Origin: Rubrivivax sp.
GTDB taxonomy: Bacteria; Pseudomonadota; Gammaproteobacteria; Burkholderiales; Burkholderiaceae_C
Reading direction: 5' to 3'
Length of the DNA stretch: 47,375 bases
Assembly (NCBI GenBank): GCA_026785885.1
Contig: JAJAZC010000127.1
Span: 1 to 47,375 of the forward strand
Shown here: piece after piece, positions 13,228 to 19,348 of the stretch
Position numbering within the stretch: the first letter of the stretch is position 1
How the letters are laid out: each line of letters opens with the position of its first letter
Made by a program: the position numbers and the translations under genes
Notes under the pieces: generated by a model
Database searches by the model: none
The model's input: the letters and a program-made list of their open reading frames with translations, nothing else
Told to the model about the DNA's origin: nothing

Positions 13228-14982
13228 ATGGATTTACCGCTGTCCGACCTGTCGCCCTGGCGCGCTGCGCTGCTGCTGGGCCCGCCTGCGCTCTATCTGC
13301 TGGCCGCCGCCGCGGCGGCGTTGCTGTTGCCGGGCTCCAACGCGGCTTCGACAAGCGCTGCAACCACAGCTGCAAGGACAGCCACAGCCTGGCGCTGGGC
13401 GCGTGCAGCAGCACTCGGCGCTTGCTTGCTGGCGGCCTTGTCGATGGCCGCGCTGGCCCTGGGCACCAGCGCGGTGGCGCACGGGCCGGTGTTGCTGCCG
13501 CTGGGTGACTTCGGCGCGCTACTGTTCAGCCTGCGCAGTGATTGGCCGGGCGCGCTGGTAATGCTGCTGGTGGGCTTTATCGGCTGGGTCATCGTCGGCT
13601 ATTCGCAGCCCTACCTCGACGGCGAGCCGGCGCAGCGCCGCTACCTCTGCAGCCTGCTGCTGACACTGGCGGCAGTGACGCTGCTGCTGACCACCAACAA
13701 CCTGATGGTGCTGGCGCTGGCATGGATTGCCACCAGCCTGGCGCTGCACGGCCTGCTGACGTTCTTCGACCGGCGGCCGCAGGCGCTGCTGGCTGCGCAC
13801 AAGAAGTTCCTGGCCAGCCGCGCCGCGGATCTGTGCCTGCTGGCGGCCATAGCGCTGGTCGGCCACCGGCTGGGCACGCTGGAGATCGACCGCGCTATTG
13901 CCGCCGTGCAAGCGCTGCCCGGCAGCGACGGCGCACTGCAAGCCGCGGCGCTGCTGTTCGTGACCAGCGCTGTGCTCAAGTGCGCGCAGCTGCCGGTGCA
14001 CGGCTGGCTGATCCAGGTCATGGAAGCGCCGACGCCGGTGTCGGCGCTGCTGCACGCCGGTGTCGTCAACCTCGGCGGCTTTTTGCTGATTCGGCTGGGG
14101 CCGCTGGTGACGGAGGTGGCGGCCGCGCAGGCGCTGTTGGTGCTGGTGGGAAGCGTGACCGCGGTCGTCGCAGCGATGGTTGCGATGACGCGCATCAGCA
14201 TCAAGGTTGCGCTCGCCTGGTCGACCTGCGCGCAGATGGGCTTCATGTTGATGCAGTGCGGCCTGGGCCTGCATGCGCTGGCGCTGGCGCACTTGCTGGC
14301 GCATTCGCTGTACAAGGCGCACGCCTTTCTGGGCGCGGGCGGTGCGGTGGCGCAGAGCCGGCTCGTGCAGATGGCGCCGAAAGCCGTGGCGCCGGATGCC
14401 AGTGCGCTGCTGATGGGCACGGCCGCCGGCGTGGCGCTGGTGGTGAGCGTGTCGATCATCAGCGGGGCGTTGGGCGGCACAGCGGCTTCATCGACTTCAC
14501 CCGCTTCGATGGTGGCCGCGCTGATCCTGGCGCTGGCGCTGGCGCCGATGCTGGCACAGGCCTTGGCCTCGATCCGCGCACAGCCTGCAACGGTGCACGG
14601 TGACACGGTCCGCGCAGCGCGGCCGGCGCTGCTGGGCCGGGCGCTAGCGGCGGCTGCGGTGGTGGTGCTGGCCACGTGGGCGCTGCACATGCTGGCCGGC
14701 CGCGGTTGGGGCGTGTATGCCGGCACGCCGGGCACCGCGTGGCTGGTCTGGGTGGTGGGCTGCTTCGTGCTGCTGCTGGTGCTGCAAAGCGTGGTCAAGG
14801 CACGGCCGCACGGCGCGCTGGCGCGGCGCCTGTACCCGTGGTTCTTCGCCGGCTTCTACCTCGACGAATTGTTCAGCCGCCTGACGCTGCGCGTGTGGCC
14901 GCTGCGCCTGCCCGGGACGGCCACTGGGCCGCGGCTTGTGGCACCCGAAACTGCCCTGCACAACCCGCCCGGAGCTCTGTAA
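13228..14982 (+). CDS. dabB: NuoL-like proton-conducting membrane protein, DabB-type inorganic carbon transporter subunit
   Basis: Antiporter-like core (KCAQLPVHGWLIQVMEAPTPVSALLHAGVVNLGGFLLIRL); TAATG junction with dabA. Confidence 0.88.
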   Translation: MDLPLSDLSPWRAALLLGPPALYLLAAAAAALLLPGSNAASTSAATTAARTATAWRWARAAALGACLLAALSMAALALGTSAVAHGPVLLPLGDFGALLFSLRSDWPGALVMLLVGFIGWVIVGYSQPYLDGEPAQRRYLCSLLLTLAAVTLLLTTNNLMVLALAWIATSLALHGLLTFFDRRPQALLAAHKKFLASRAADLCLLAAIALVGHRLGTLEIDRAIAAVQALPGSDGALQAAALLFVTSAVLKCAQLPVHGWLIQVMEAPTPVSALLHAGVVNLGGFLLIRLGPLVTEVAAAQALLVLVGSVTAVVAAMVAMTRISIKVALAWSTCAQMGFMLMQCGLGLHALALAHLLAHSLYKAHAFLGAGGAVAQSRLVQMAPKAVAPDASALLMGTAAGVALVVSVSIISGALGGTAASSTSPASMVAALILALALAPMLAQALASIRAQPATVHGDTVRAARPALLGRALAAAAVVVLATWALHMLAGRGWGVYAGTPGTAWLVWVVGCFVLLLVLQSVVKARPHGALARRLYPWFFAGFYLDELFSRLTLRVWPLRLPGTATGPRLVAPETALHNPPGAL

Positions 14983-17870
14983 TGACCGCCGTATCGACCG
15001 TTGTTGTGAGCGACACCCCCGAAGCCGCCAAGGCGCCGCTGACCGCCAATCCGATGGGCGCCGCCGCTCAGGCCGCGACACCCGCTGCCGACTCAGCCGC
15101 CATCACGGCCGCAATCACCGCGGCCTGCGCGCGCATCGCGCCGACCTGGCCGCTGGACCGCTTCATTGCCGTCAACCCGTACTGGGGCCACGTGCAGGAC
15201 CCCATAGCCACCGCCGCGGCGCGCCTGGCCGTGCTGTCGGGCAGCCCGTTGTTGGTGCCGCCTGGCGTGATGCGCGCGCACTGGCAAGCCGGGCGCATCA
15301 CGCGCCGGCACCTGCAGGCCGCCATCGCTGCGGCGGGTGCATCGGCCAGCGTCGATGAACTGGTTGCCGGGCTCGGCACCGCGGACGTCGCCACGCCGCC
15401 TGGCGCGCCCACGCCGCCCGCGTTGCCGCTGGTGGCCGACCTGCTGGATGCCCAGCGCGATCTGCGCCACGCACCGGCCTGGCGCGACTTCGTCACGCAG
15501 CACATCAGCCAACGCTGCGCGGCCTACTTCGACCACAGCCAGGCCAGCTGGGCTGCAGACCGCACCGGCGGCCTCTACGCCACCTGGCTGCGGTTGTCCG
15601 CCGACGACCTGAGCCCGGCGCTCTTGATGGGCCTGCGCGGCTTCAGCCGGCGTCTGGCCGCGTTGCCGGCCACGCCGCAGGCGCTGATCACCTCAGCACT
15701 GCAAGCGCTGCGCGTGCCGGCCGCCGCGCAAGAGGCCTACCTCACCGCGCTGCTGCTGAGCATCAACGGCTGGGCATCGTGGGCTGCCTACCAGCGCTGG
15801 CAGGCGCGCCTGATGCAGCGTGATGACGAGCAGATCGTGCACCTGCTGGCGGTGCGGCTGGCTTGGGACTGGCTGCTGCACGACAGCCATGCCGAGGTCG
15901 ACTTCGCTCGGGCTGGTGCGGCTGGTGCGGGGGCCGACACGCGGGATGCCGCGCTGTCGGGCTCAGTGGCTGCCTCGCTGCCGGGCCCGTTGCCTGTCTT
16001 GCCAGCCCGCACGCTGTCTGACGCGCTAACCGAAGCCTGGTCCGACCCCGATGCGGCGGTGGCCCGCGCCGAGACCGCGCAGCAGCACGCCTGGCTGTGG
16101 CAGGCGGCGCTGGAGCGCACGCAGCAGGCGCTCTGGTGCCGGGGCCTGACGCAGGCACCATCGACGCCCGCCGCGGCGGCCGGGCTTGCAAGCGACCTTT
16201 CGCCCACTGCTGCGCCCGGCTCCGCGTCTGCGTCCGCGTCTGCGTCTGCGTCCGCACTTACTTCCGCAACCGCGGTGCGTCCCGCAGTGCAGGCGGTGTT
16301 CTGCATCGACGTGCGCTCCGAGGTCTACCGCCGTGCGCTGGAAGCGGCGAGCCCATCCGTGCAGACGCTGGGCTTCGCGGGTTTCTTTGCGCTGTTCGTT
16401 GCCTACCGCCCGCTGGGCACCGAGATGCTGCGGCCGCAGTTGCCAGGACTGATGGCGCCGACCTTGTGCCTGACCGATGTGTGCGACAGCGACAGCCACA
16501 GCGCCCGCATCAACGCCAACGCCAACATTGCCGGAACCGCCACCGAAGCCGCCACCGAAGCCAACCTTGACAGCAACCCCGACAGCCCCTCGTTGGGCCA
16601 GGTGCTGGCCACCCGGCGCCGCGCCAAGCTGCAGTGGCGCCAGTTGTGGCAGGGCTTTCGCAGCGGCGCGGCCTCGGGCTTTTCTTTTGTCGAGGCCTGC
16701 GGCTGGCTCTACGCAGCGCCGCTGCTGGCGCGCCAGCGTGGCATGCCCGAGCAACCTGCCGCAGTCGAGCAAACGGGCCTCAGCCCAGCCGAGCAACAGG
16801 CGCTGCGCCCGCGCTTCGAGCCCGACGGTGCAACCGGCACCACGCCCACGTTGGCCACCCGCGCCGACATGGCCGCCACCGCGCTGCGGGCCATGGGCCT
16901 GCACGACCGCCTCGCGCGCCTGGTGCTGCTGGCCGGCCACGGCAGCAGCAGCACCAACAACCCGCATGCCGCGGGCCTGGACTGCGGTGCCTGCGGTGGC
17001 CAGACCGGTGAGGTCAACGCCCGCGCGCTTGTGCTGCTGCTCAACGACCCGGCGGTACGCACCGCGCTGCGCGATCGTGGCCTGCAGCTGCCCGAGGACA
17101 GCGTGTTCGTCGCCGGTCTGCACGACACCACCACCGACACGCTGACGCTGCACGACACCGATCTGCTGCCGGCCAGCCACACCGGTGATCTGCAGCAGCT
17201 GCGGGCCGCGTTGCGAGATGCCGGCGCGCGCGCCCGCGCCGAGCGGGCACCCGGGCTCGACCTGGCCGCGCTGGCCACCGAGCCGGCAGCGCTGTTGCAG
17301 GCCATCACACGCCGCAGCCGCGACTGGGCGCAGGTGCGCCCGGAGTGGGGCCTGGCCGACTGCGGCGCTTTCATCGTCGCGCCGCGCAGCCGCAGCCGGG
17401 CGCTGGACCTCGGCGGCCGCAGCTTCCTGCACGACTACCGCTGGCAGAACGACGCAGGCTTTGGCGTGCTGGAGCTGATCATGACCGCGCCGATGATCGT
17501 CACGCACTGGATCAACATGCAGTACCACGCCTCGGTGGTGGACCCGCTGCGATACGGCAGCGGCAACAAGGTGCTGCACAACGTGGTCGGTGGTCACATC
17601 GGCGTGTTCGAAGGCAACGGCGGCGATCTGCGCATCGGCCTGCCGCTGCAATCGGTGCACGACGGCCAACGCTTTCGCCACACACCGCTGCGCTTGAGCG
17701 TGTTCGTCCACGCCCCGCGCGATGCGATGGACCGCATCATCGCCAGGCACGACACCGTGCGCAGCCTGCTGGACAACGGCTGGCTGCACCTGTTTGCGCT
17801 GGGCGATGAACAGGGCGTGTGGCGCCGCACCGGGACCGGCGTGTGGGCCGCAGAAAACGGCTTGGCATGA
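14982..17870 (+). CDS. dabA: DabA (DUF2309/UPF0753) inorganic carbon transporter subunit
   Basis: PLDRFIAVNPYWGHV...FCIDVRSEVYRRALE...GHGSSSTNNPHAAGLDCGACGGQTGEVNAR...FLHDYRWQNDAGFGVLELIMTAPMIVTHWINMQYHASVVDPLRYGSGNKVLHNVVG. Confidence 0.94.
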   Translation: MTAVSTVVVSDTPEAAKAPLTANPMGAAAQAATPAADSAAITAAITAACARIAPTWPLDRFIAVNPYWGHVQDPIATAAARLAVLSGSPLLVPPGVMRAHWQAGRITRRHLQAAIAAAGASASVDELVAGLGTADVATPPGAPTPPALPLVADLLDAQRDLRHAPAWRDFVTQHISQRCAAYFDHSQASWAADRTGGLYATWLRLSADDLSPALLMGLRGFSRRLAALPATPQALITSALQALRVPAAAQEAYLTALLLSINGWASWAAYQRWQARLMQRDDEQIVHLLAVRLAWDWLLHDSHAEVDFARAGAAGAGADTRDAALSGSVAASLPGPLPVLPARTLSDALTEAWSDPDAAVARAETAQQHAWLWQAALERTQQALWCRGLTQAPSTPAAAAGLASDLSPTAAPGSASASASASASALTSATAVRPAVQAVFCIDVRSEVYRRALEAASPSVQTLGFAGFFALFVAYRPLGTEMLRPQLPGLMAPTLCLTDVCDSDSHSARINANANIAGTATEAATEANLDSNPDSPSLGQVLATRRRAKLQWRQLWQGFRSGAASGFSFVEACGWLYAAPLLARQRGMPEQPAAVEQTGLSPAEQQALRPRFEPDGATGTTPTLATRADMAATALRAMGLHDRLARLVLLAGHGSSSTNNPHAAGLDCGACGGQTGEVNARALVLLLNDPAVRTALRDRGLQLPEDSVFVAGLHDTTTDTLTLHDTDLLPASHTGDLQQLRAALRDAGARARAERAPGLDLAALATEPAALLQAITRRSRDWAQVRPEWGLADCGAFIVAPRSRSRALDLGGRSFLHDYRWQNDAGFGVLELIMTAPMIVTHWINMQYHASVVDPLRYGSGNKVLHNVVGGHIGVFEGNGGDLRIGLPLQSVHDGQRFRHTPLRLSVFVHAPRDAMDRIIARHDTVRSLLDNGWLHLFALGDEQGVWRRTGTGVWAAENGLA
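16221..16256 (+). repeat. In-frame hexanucleotide microsatellite (GCGTCT/GCGTCC)n encoding (SA)n in dabA
   Basis: tccgcgtctgcgtccgcgtctgcgtctgcgtccgca. Confidence 0.85.
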
Positions 17871-17917
17871 CCCGGGCCGTGGCCGGCTACGAAAAGCTGC
17901 GTGCTACATTCGCCCGC

Positions 17918-17995
17918 ATGTATTCGGCAGCGTTTCTTGACTCTACGGGCTACTGGTTCTCGCACCGCATGGCGGCTGGAGAGGCAAGCGCGTAG
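17918..17995 (+). CDS. Leader peptide of the DAHP synthase gene (25 aa): MYSAAFLDSTGYWFSHRMAAGEASA
   Basis: Short ORF with consecutive Tyr-Trp-Phe codons (17951-17959), followed by an intrinsic terminator and then DAHP synthase. Confidence 0.75.
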   Translation: MYSAAFLDSTGYWFSHRMAAGEASA

Positions 17996-18054
17996 GTTTG
18001 AAAACACGACGCAAAAGCACCCCACCAACCGCCGGCAGCCCCGGCGGTTTTTTG
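17971..18054 (+). promoter_or_regulatory. Candidate transcription attenuator: antiterminator arm 17971-17979 can pair with 18025-18033; terminator hairpin 18028-18048 plus T6
   Basis: GGCGGCTGG versus CCAACCGCC (8 of 9 pairs); ACCGCCGG-cagcc-CCGGCGGT followed by TTTTT. Confidence 0.72.
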
Positions 18055-18190
18055 TTGCCCGGGGACCCTGCACCGCCCCGACGGACACCGGTGATTACCG
18101 GTAAAAGCACCCGTAAAAACATTGGCATCGACACCGGCGACCACACCGATAACAACGCCGATAACAACGCAGACATGAAGGACCGCCGCC

Positions 18191-19348
18191 ATGAGCCCCG
18201 AGCCCGCCAACGCCAGCCCTGCAGATGAACGTCTGGCGCTGTCCGAGAAGACCAGCCGCACCGACGACCAGCGCATCCGCAACGTCACGCCGCTGCCACC
18301 CCCGGAGCATCTGATCCGCTTTTTTCCGATCGCCGGCACGCCGGTGGAAGCGTTGATCCAGGACACGCGCAGCGCCATCCGCCGCATCATGGCCGGCAGC
18401 GGTGGCGAAAGCAGCGCGGGCAGCGACCGGCTGCTGGTGATCATCGGCCCGTGCTCGATCCACGACCCGGCAGCGGCGCTGGAATACGCACGCCGGCTCA
18501 AGGCCCTGCGCACGCAGCACGCAGCCGAGCTGGAGATCGTGATGCGCGTGTACTTCGAAAAGCCGCGCACCACGGTGGGCTGGAAGGGCCTCATCAACGA
18601 CCCGTATCTCGACGAGAGCTACCGCATCCACGAAGGCCTGCGCATTGCGCGCCAGCTGCTGGTGGACATCAACCGGCTGGGCGTGCCGGCGGGCAGCGAG
18701 TTCTTGGACGTCATCAGCCCGCAGTACATCGGCGACCTGATCGCCTGGGGCGCCATCGGTGCACGCACGACAGAGTCGCAGGTGCACCGTGAACTGGCCT
18801 CGGGCTTGTCGGCGCCGGTGGGCTTCAAGAACGGCACCGACGGCAACATTCGCATCGCCACCGACGCCATCCAGGCCGCGGCGCGGCCGCATCACTTTTT
18901 ATCGGTGCACAAGAACGGCCAGGTGGCCATCGTGCAGACCGAGGGCAACGGTGATTGCCACGTCATCCTGCGTGGCGGCAAGGCGCCCAACTACGACGCC
19001 ACGAGCGTCGCTGCGGCCTGCGCCGAGATCGAAGCCGCCAAGCTGCCGTGCCGGCTGATGATCGACGCCAGCCACGCCAACAGCAGCAAGCAGCACCAGC
19101 GCCAGATCGAAGTCATGCGCGATGTCGGCGCGCAAATCGCCGGCGGCAACCGCTGCATCTTCGGCGTCATGGTGGAAAGCCATCTGCACGACGGCGCGCA
19201 GAAGTTCAGCCCCGGCAAAGACGATCCAGCGCAGCTGGCCTATGGCCGCAGCATCACCGACGCGTGCATCGGTTGGGACGACAGCGTCGGCTTGCTGCAA
19301 GGCCTGGCCGACGCGGTGGCCGCCCGGCGGGCCGGACGGCCCAGCTAA
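18191..19348 (+). CDS. 3-deoxy-7-phosphoheptulonate synthase, class I (AroG/F/H family)
   Basis: LLVIIGPCSIHDPAAALEYARRL...MRVYFEKPRTTVGWKGLINDPYLDESYRIHEGLRIARQLL...SEFLDVISPQYIGDLIAWGAIGARTTESQVHRELASGLS. Confidence 0.95.
   Translation: MSPEPANASPADERLALSEKTSRTDDQRIRNVTPLPPPEHLIRFFPIAGTPVEALIQDTRSAIRRIMAGSGGESSAGSDRLLVIIGPCSIHDPAAALEYARRLKALRTQHAAELEIVMRVYFEKPRTTVGWKGLINDPYLDESYRIHEGLRIARQLLVDINRLGVPAGSEFLDVISPQYIGDLIAWGAIGARTTESQVHRELASGLSAPVGFKNGTDGNIRIATDAIQAAARPHHFLSVHKNGQVAIVQTEGNGDCHVILRGGKAPNYDATSVAAACAEIEAAKLPCRLMIDASHANSSKQHQRQIEVMRDVGAQIAGGNRCIFGVMVESHLHDGAQKFSPGKDDPAQLAYGRSITDACIGWDDSVGLLQGLADAVAARRAGRPS

Follow-up and report, generated by a model that had tools for sequence, protein, structure and literature searches.

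How is the DAHP synthase gene controlled at a locus where a short open reading frame (ORF) and an intrinsic terminator stand just ahead of it? The locus lies within a 47,375-nucleotide stretch of Rubrivivax sp. DNA (hereafter the window), in which the ORF at 18191–19348 (+ strand) encodes a class I DAHP synthase of the AroFGH type, scoring 518 bits to TIGR00034 (aroFGH; cut-off 173) and matching Pfam DAHP_synth_1 (PF00793). A search of the assembly with this protein returns only the protein itself. Directly upstream, on the same strand, is a DabA gene (14676–17870; PF10070), whose product is a probable inorganic carbon transporter subunit. We propose that the synthase gene is very probably controlled by a ribosome-mediated transcription attenuator of the trp/phe type. 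The proposal draws on the sequence elements, their conservation, a codon bias and modelled base pairing, from which we infer the promoter and start site, translation, stalling, termination and the response to amino acids.

The leader peptide ORF (MYSAAFLDSTGYWFSHRMAAGEASA, stop included; 17918–17995, + strand) can be read directly from the window, running for 25 codons from an ATG at 17918 to a TAG at 17993–17995. Its putative sensor codons occupy 17951–17959, with Tyr12 (17951), Trp13 (17954) and Phe14 (17957) adjacent to one another, exactly as the original prediction described. Among the 268 short ATG ORFs of the window, three consecutive aromatic residues are found in just two independent ORFs (three entries, two of them nested), of which the leader ORF is one. 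The form taken here is an atypical, reduced one, F-LDSTG-YWF (17918–17959), with a single adjacent YWF; the F-Y-F part of the usual aromatic run is missing, although present in most close relatives.

Those relatives were sampled through orthologous DAHP synthase genes (approximately 79–89% identical) from 41 genomes, including the window's own, for which the upstream region was available. The leader is present in 41/41 of these loci of genus Rubrivivax (GTDB sense), and so is an intrinsic terminator between the leader ORF and the gene. The usual genus peptide reads M-R-x-A-x-F-Y/F-F-x-Y-F-W-F-S-H/P-R-x-A-A-G-E-A-x-A. Conservation of the short ORF and its aromatic codons, the point on which the original prediction had staked itself, thus holds at all 41 genus loci and, as a diverged version, at 25 loci of the wider order; such conservation in relatives removes chance as an explanation. 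An ordinary reading would assign the hairpin to dabA, as the constitutive terminator of that upstream gene, or would see in it a partial terminator of fixed strength; either way the short ORF would be incidental. This gains something from the position of dabA, which ends at 17870 on the same strand, and from a terminator that is good by consensus. We consider it very improbable nonetheless: the leader ORF, aromatic codons, antiterminator strand (strand 2, below) and spacing are kept in 41/41 orthologues whose flanks cannot be aligned, and the same layout recurs with different sequences in other families, none of which a plain terminator needs.

A scan of 84,980 species genomes with a leader-core pattern matched 66 contigs. 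In 65 of these the match is shown to sit immediately ahead of DAHP synthase; the slice of the 66th stops short of the gene. The matches are mostly labelled Rubrivivax, Ideonella, Aquincola or unplaced Burkholderiales MAGs. One contig filed under Terrimicrobiaceae has a leader sequence identical to that of a Rubrivivax MAG (L078 and L117), and this copy is probably a binning error. The second DAHP synthase paralogue carried by the same genomes (~60% identical) has no such leader in the loci examined.

The composition of the peptide argues that it is translated. Phe is present in 72/72 unique Rubrivivax-group leaders, Trp in 68/72 and Tyr in 61/72; an alignment of 69 leaders has several positions where F and Y replace each other with the aromatic class kept, W is found in 66/69, and the last codon is F in 58/69 or I in 11/69. 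Phenylalanine is written as TTT in 153 of 274 cases in the leader ORFs (L003–L137; 56%) versus 11 of 246 in the DAHP synthase genes (4.5%; p = 7e-41), and the Tyr codon TAT is mildly enriched in leaders (p = 0.016). These p-values overstate independence because the sequences share ancestry; the contrast is nonetheless large. Together, F/Y interchange and bias towards a rare Phe codon are hard to explain without translation of the leader, and the TTT bias would fit control codons selected for sensitivity.

Upstream of the leader ATG, the genus-group alignment contains one strongly conserved block, CG followed by TGCTACATT. In the window this extended −10-like promoter box is read at 17902–17910 (+ strand), 7 nt before the leader start codon. 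A TGnTAnnnT motif is found 6–10 nt ahead of the start codon in 69/72 unique Rubrivivax-group leaders, 7 being the commonest spacing, and the alignment shows neither a conserved −35 upstream of the leader nor, by eye, an evident Shine–Dalgarno sequence. The wider order is less uniform, with a possible Shine–Dalgarno in a few leaders, again judged by eye. Because the −10-like box sits so close to the start codon, the arrangement suggests that transcription starts at the leader AUG or right beside it, giving a leaderless leader peptide.

Beyond the ORF, the window holds a terminator at 18027–18053, the sole strong + strand terminator in a scan of all 47 kb. It is built from ACCGCCGG (18028–18035), a CAGCC loop (18036–18040) and CCGGCGGT (18041–18048), ending in six T (18048–18053), so that direct reading and the scan agree on the clean, T6-tailed terminator of the original prediction. 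Four strands can be assigned along the leader, all on the + strand. Strand 1 (GGUUCUCGCACCGC, 17955–17968), taken from the minimum free energy (MFE) structure, overlaps the Trp-Phe-Ser-His-Arg codons and pairs with strand 2 when the RNA is ribosome-free. Strand 2 (GGCGGCUGGAGAGG, 17971–17984) forms the 5′ half of the antiterminator and lies inside the leader ORF; its GGCGG[C/T]TGG motif is present in 41/41 genus loci. Strand 3 (CCAACCGCCGG, 18025–18035, by direct reading) serves both as the antiterminator 3′ half and as the terminator 5′ arm, and strand 4 (CCGGCGGU, 18041–18048, from the terminator scan) is the terminator 3′ arm. Direct reading also bears out the earlier proposal that GGCGGCTGG (17971–17979) can pair at 8/9 positions with CCAACCGCC (18025–18033). 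That prediction had the ORF, terminator and antiterminator pairing right, but overlooked strand 1 (~17955–17968), the −10-like box (17902–17910) and the window's shortened aromatic run.

Does this arrangement behave as a switch when folded? The leader region has a fold z-score of −2.43, and 2:3 pairing is found in the MFE structure of 96/96 loci once strand 4 is omitted. In the whole, ribosome-free leader, 1:2 pairing dominates (probability ~0.80 in the window, mean 0.69 over 72 leaders) and 2:3 pairing is scarce (~0 in the window, mean 0.13). We modelled the ribosome with a footprint reaching 12 nt ahead of the A-site codon, a value assumed from E. coli. When the A site holds the last aromatic codon, the probability of 2:3 pairing is ~1.0 in 72/72 leaders, reproducing the claim that a stall on the aromatic codons leaves the antiterminator free; one codon further on it is 0–0.15 in the leaders listed, a sharp drop that is owed partly to the assumed footprint. 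The modelling thus depicts an antiterminator that is mutually exclusive with the terminator and freed by stalling at the control codons. At equilibrium the terminator is favoured over 2:3 pairing by ~4 kcal/mol, and so the switch must be kinetic, set by the order of synthesis, as in other attenuators.

The other half of the original argument, that translating to the stop masks the antiterminator, is borne out in part. With the stop codon in the A site, the assumed E. coli-like footprint covers ~17978–18005; masking would be only partial because GGCGG (17971–17975) sits at the rear edge of this footprint. The modelled 1:2 hairpin is likely to act as a second safeguard besides masking, one that would also bring about termination when no ribosome is present.

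We envisage the following sequence of events. RNA polymerase would start at or beside the leader AUG from the extended −10 promoter, with a ribosome following on the leader ORF. A shortage of charged Phe, Tyr or Trp tRNA would make the ribosome stall on the aromatic codons, where it would cover strand 1 but not strand 2 (GGCGGCUGG..), which lies immediately ahead and stays free. This free strand would then pair with strand 3 as the latter emerges, no terminator would form, and DAHP synthase would be transcribed. With charged tRNAs ample, the ribosome would enter strand 2 and reach the stop codon, strand 3 would be free to pair with strand 4, and this 3:4 pairing would end transcription at about 18053. 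Were the leader not translated at all, 1:2 pairing would likewise leave the terminator free to form.

An RNA that itself senses the aromatic amino acid, as a metabolite- or protein-binding, riboswitch-like leader independent of translation, might be suggested by the conservation of strand 2 and terminator at the nucleotide level beyond coding need. In the region of strand 2, codons 4–8 show zero third-position entropy, a value partly ascertained by the search pattern. Rfam families (for example, Trp_leader and Phe_leader) gave no match at gathering score, and searches opened to an E-value of 10 gave chance-level matches only; moreover, 1:2, 2:3 and 3:4 pairing account for the conserved nucleotides, and without translation there would be no sense in aromatic codons that interchange F and Y and favour TTT. 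We judge such an RNA sensor the least probable of the alternatives considered here, and extremely so.

Turning to covariation, which the original prediction had offered as a check on both helices, the terminator stem shows compensatory exchanges of G-C to A-U between families. For the antiterminator (strands 2 and 3) the signal is weak, with p = 0.048 for the flanking pairs, p = 0.14 for a second helix and p = 0.17 for the −1/+1 association (Fisher test), and across families own and swapped strand 3 sequences differ weakly. This is explained in part by strand 2 and 3 cores that hardly vary, and largely by the need for one sequence to serve both 2:3 and 3:4 pairing.

How far does the attenuator extend? 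In an even sample of Burkholderiales, 25 loci from ~16 families, among them other genera of the window's own family, have divergent leader ORFs of the same layout, Phe/Tyr-rich and often Trp-containing (for example, MSQRFYFFFYFWSYLSHRRAK, MYTRAAHWFFFGFFLPLAEGIDRRC and MLIKSARFYFFSFYFCPLAEGDGVRA). In these, GGCGG follows the aromatic codons of the ORF and is itself followed by an ACCGCC..GGCGGTTTT terminator. Counting from the last aromatic codon's first base, GGCGG or a shifted equivalent mostly begins 10–15 nt further on (range 8–20). Its reading phase is not constant; what is conserved is therefore the RNA, not the peptide. Many other order members with more distant DAHP synthases (~57–66% identity) are without such a leader. 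Outside Burkholderiales, 28 loci were examined, and 2 of them (L213 and L229, both of one family) have a similar leader (…FYFWYYFPKPLAEEGLRSP) ahead of DAHP synthase. In the family of L196 and L197 (also in L068), CGTCTGA(A) adjoins the leader MLIKSARFYFFSFYFCPLAEGDGVRA, and Trp is absent there. We take this motif to resemble the Neisseria DNA uptake sequence, a likeness from which the attenuator may extend to Neisseriaceae.

Attenuation may be real and yet not the whole story, if the terminated leader RNA (~135 nt) or the peptide had an extra role in trans, as proposed for Sinorhizobium trpL. The predicted leaderless layout resembles that of S. meliloti trpL, a leader with trans-acting RNA and peptide (PMC7298713), and the C-terminal SHRxAAGEAxA is nearly invariant in the genus. 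In L029, L038 and L042, though, the reading frame overlying strand 2 differs and the peptide changes, and the GGCGG[C/T]TGG nucleotides are retained; the C-terminal conservation is thus attributable to strand 2. The C termini of the leader peptides are unrelated in other families. An added trans function is therefore unlikely in our view, if less so than either the plain terminator or the RNA sensor, and attenuation by itself remains the preferred account.

The survey also qualifies what the leader would sense. That one leader reads all three aromatic amino acids, as first proposed, is consistent with the window and the majority of its close relatives; it does not extend to the order as a whole, several other families having leaders that lack Trp. 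Judged by its codons, the leader family is first a Phe/Tyr sensor. On a bolder reading, the first aromatic step was ancestrally controlled throughout Burkholderiales (Betaproteobacteria) by a leaderless attenuator that pools Phe, Tyr and Trp supply in one stalling decision, with lineages adding or losing the Trp input; we entertain this as a possibility, leaning somewhat against it.

The proposed system has known counterparts. With the E. coli trp, pheA and pheST attenuators (trpL, pheL and pheM) it has in common control codons, four strands, an intrinsic terminator and a ribosome decision made between start and stop; it differs in regulating a first-common-step gene, in its mixed aromatic codons and in an apparently leaderless start. 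In the E. coli attenuators strand 2 is located after the leader stop codon, whereas here it lies inside the ORF, upstream of the stop. A leaderless start, probable here, is established for S. meliloti trpL, where the RNA has been shown experimentally to begin at the leader-ORF AUG; that leader controls trpE(G) and responds to Trp only (PMC7298713), whereas here the start is predicted from −10 spacing and the codons are for F, Y and W.

The closest precedent in function is the Corynebacterium glutamicum aroR leader of aroF, a DAHP synthase gene (Neshat et al. 2014), which, as described in PMC11802643, has Phe-Tyr-Phe codons and works by ribosome-stalling attenuation; in that account it responds to Phe limitation and reportedly not to Tyr. 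Both systems place an aromatic-codon leader peptide upstream of DAHP synthase, with stalling attenuation proposed for ours, yet aroR belongs to another phylum and, in the description given there, is without Trp, whereas most close relatives of the window carry F, Y and W. We know of no sequence similarity between the two leaders. For a proteobacterial DAHP synthase gene, attenuation has a prior entry in a table listing an attenuator 'sensing tyr-tRNA' for Shewanella aroF, based on a 1980 study of E. coli aroF-tyrA (PMC2659441); the lineage is different, and the passage accompanying the entry describes no leader. Our search of openly available papers found no attenuator of a beta-proteobacterial or Burkholderiales DAHP synthase gene; an earlier prediction may exist in subscription papers (for example, the classic attenuator surveys). 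The mechanism, ribosome-mediated attenuation, is a known one. The form predicted here is well supported and has some unusual traits: mixed aromatic sensing, a probable leaderless start, the rare-codon bias and order-wide spread.

These data provide a concrete predicted mechanism by which a large bacterial group would control the committed step of aromatic synthesis; the literature searched offers no such mechanism for this group. The heavy reliance of the leaders on TTT, a rare Phe codon, supports the view that sensitivity governs the choice of control codons, and the leader family could readily be proposed to Rfam as a new entry. A natural series of leaders that gain or lose Phe, Tyr and Trp codons would make the integration of several amino acids within one attenuator directly testable.
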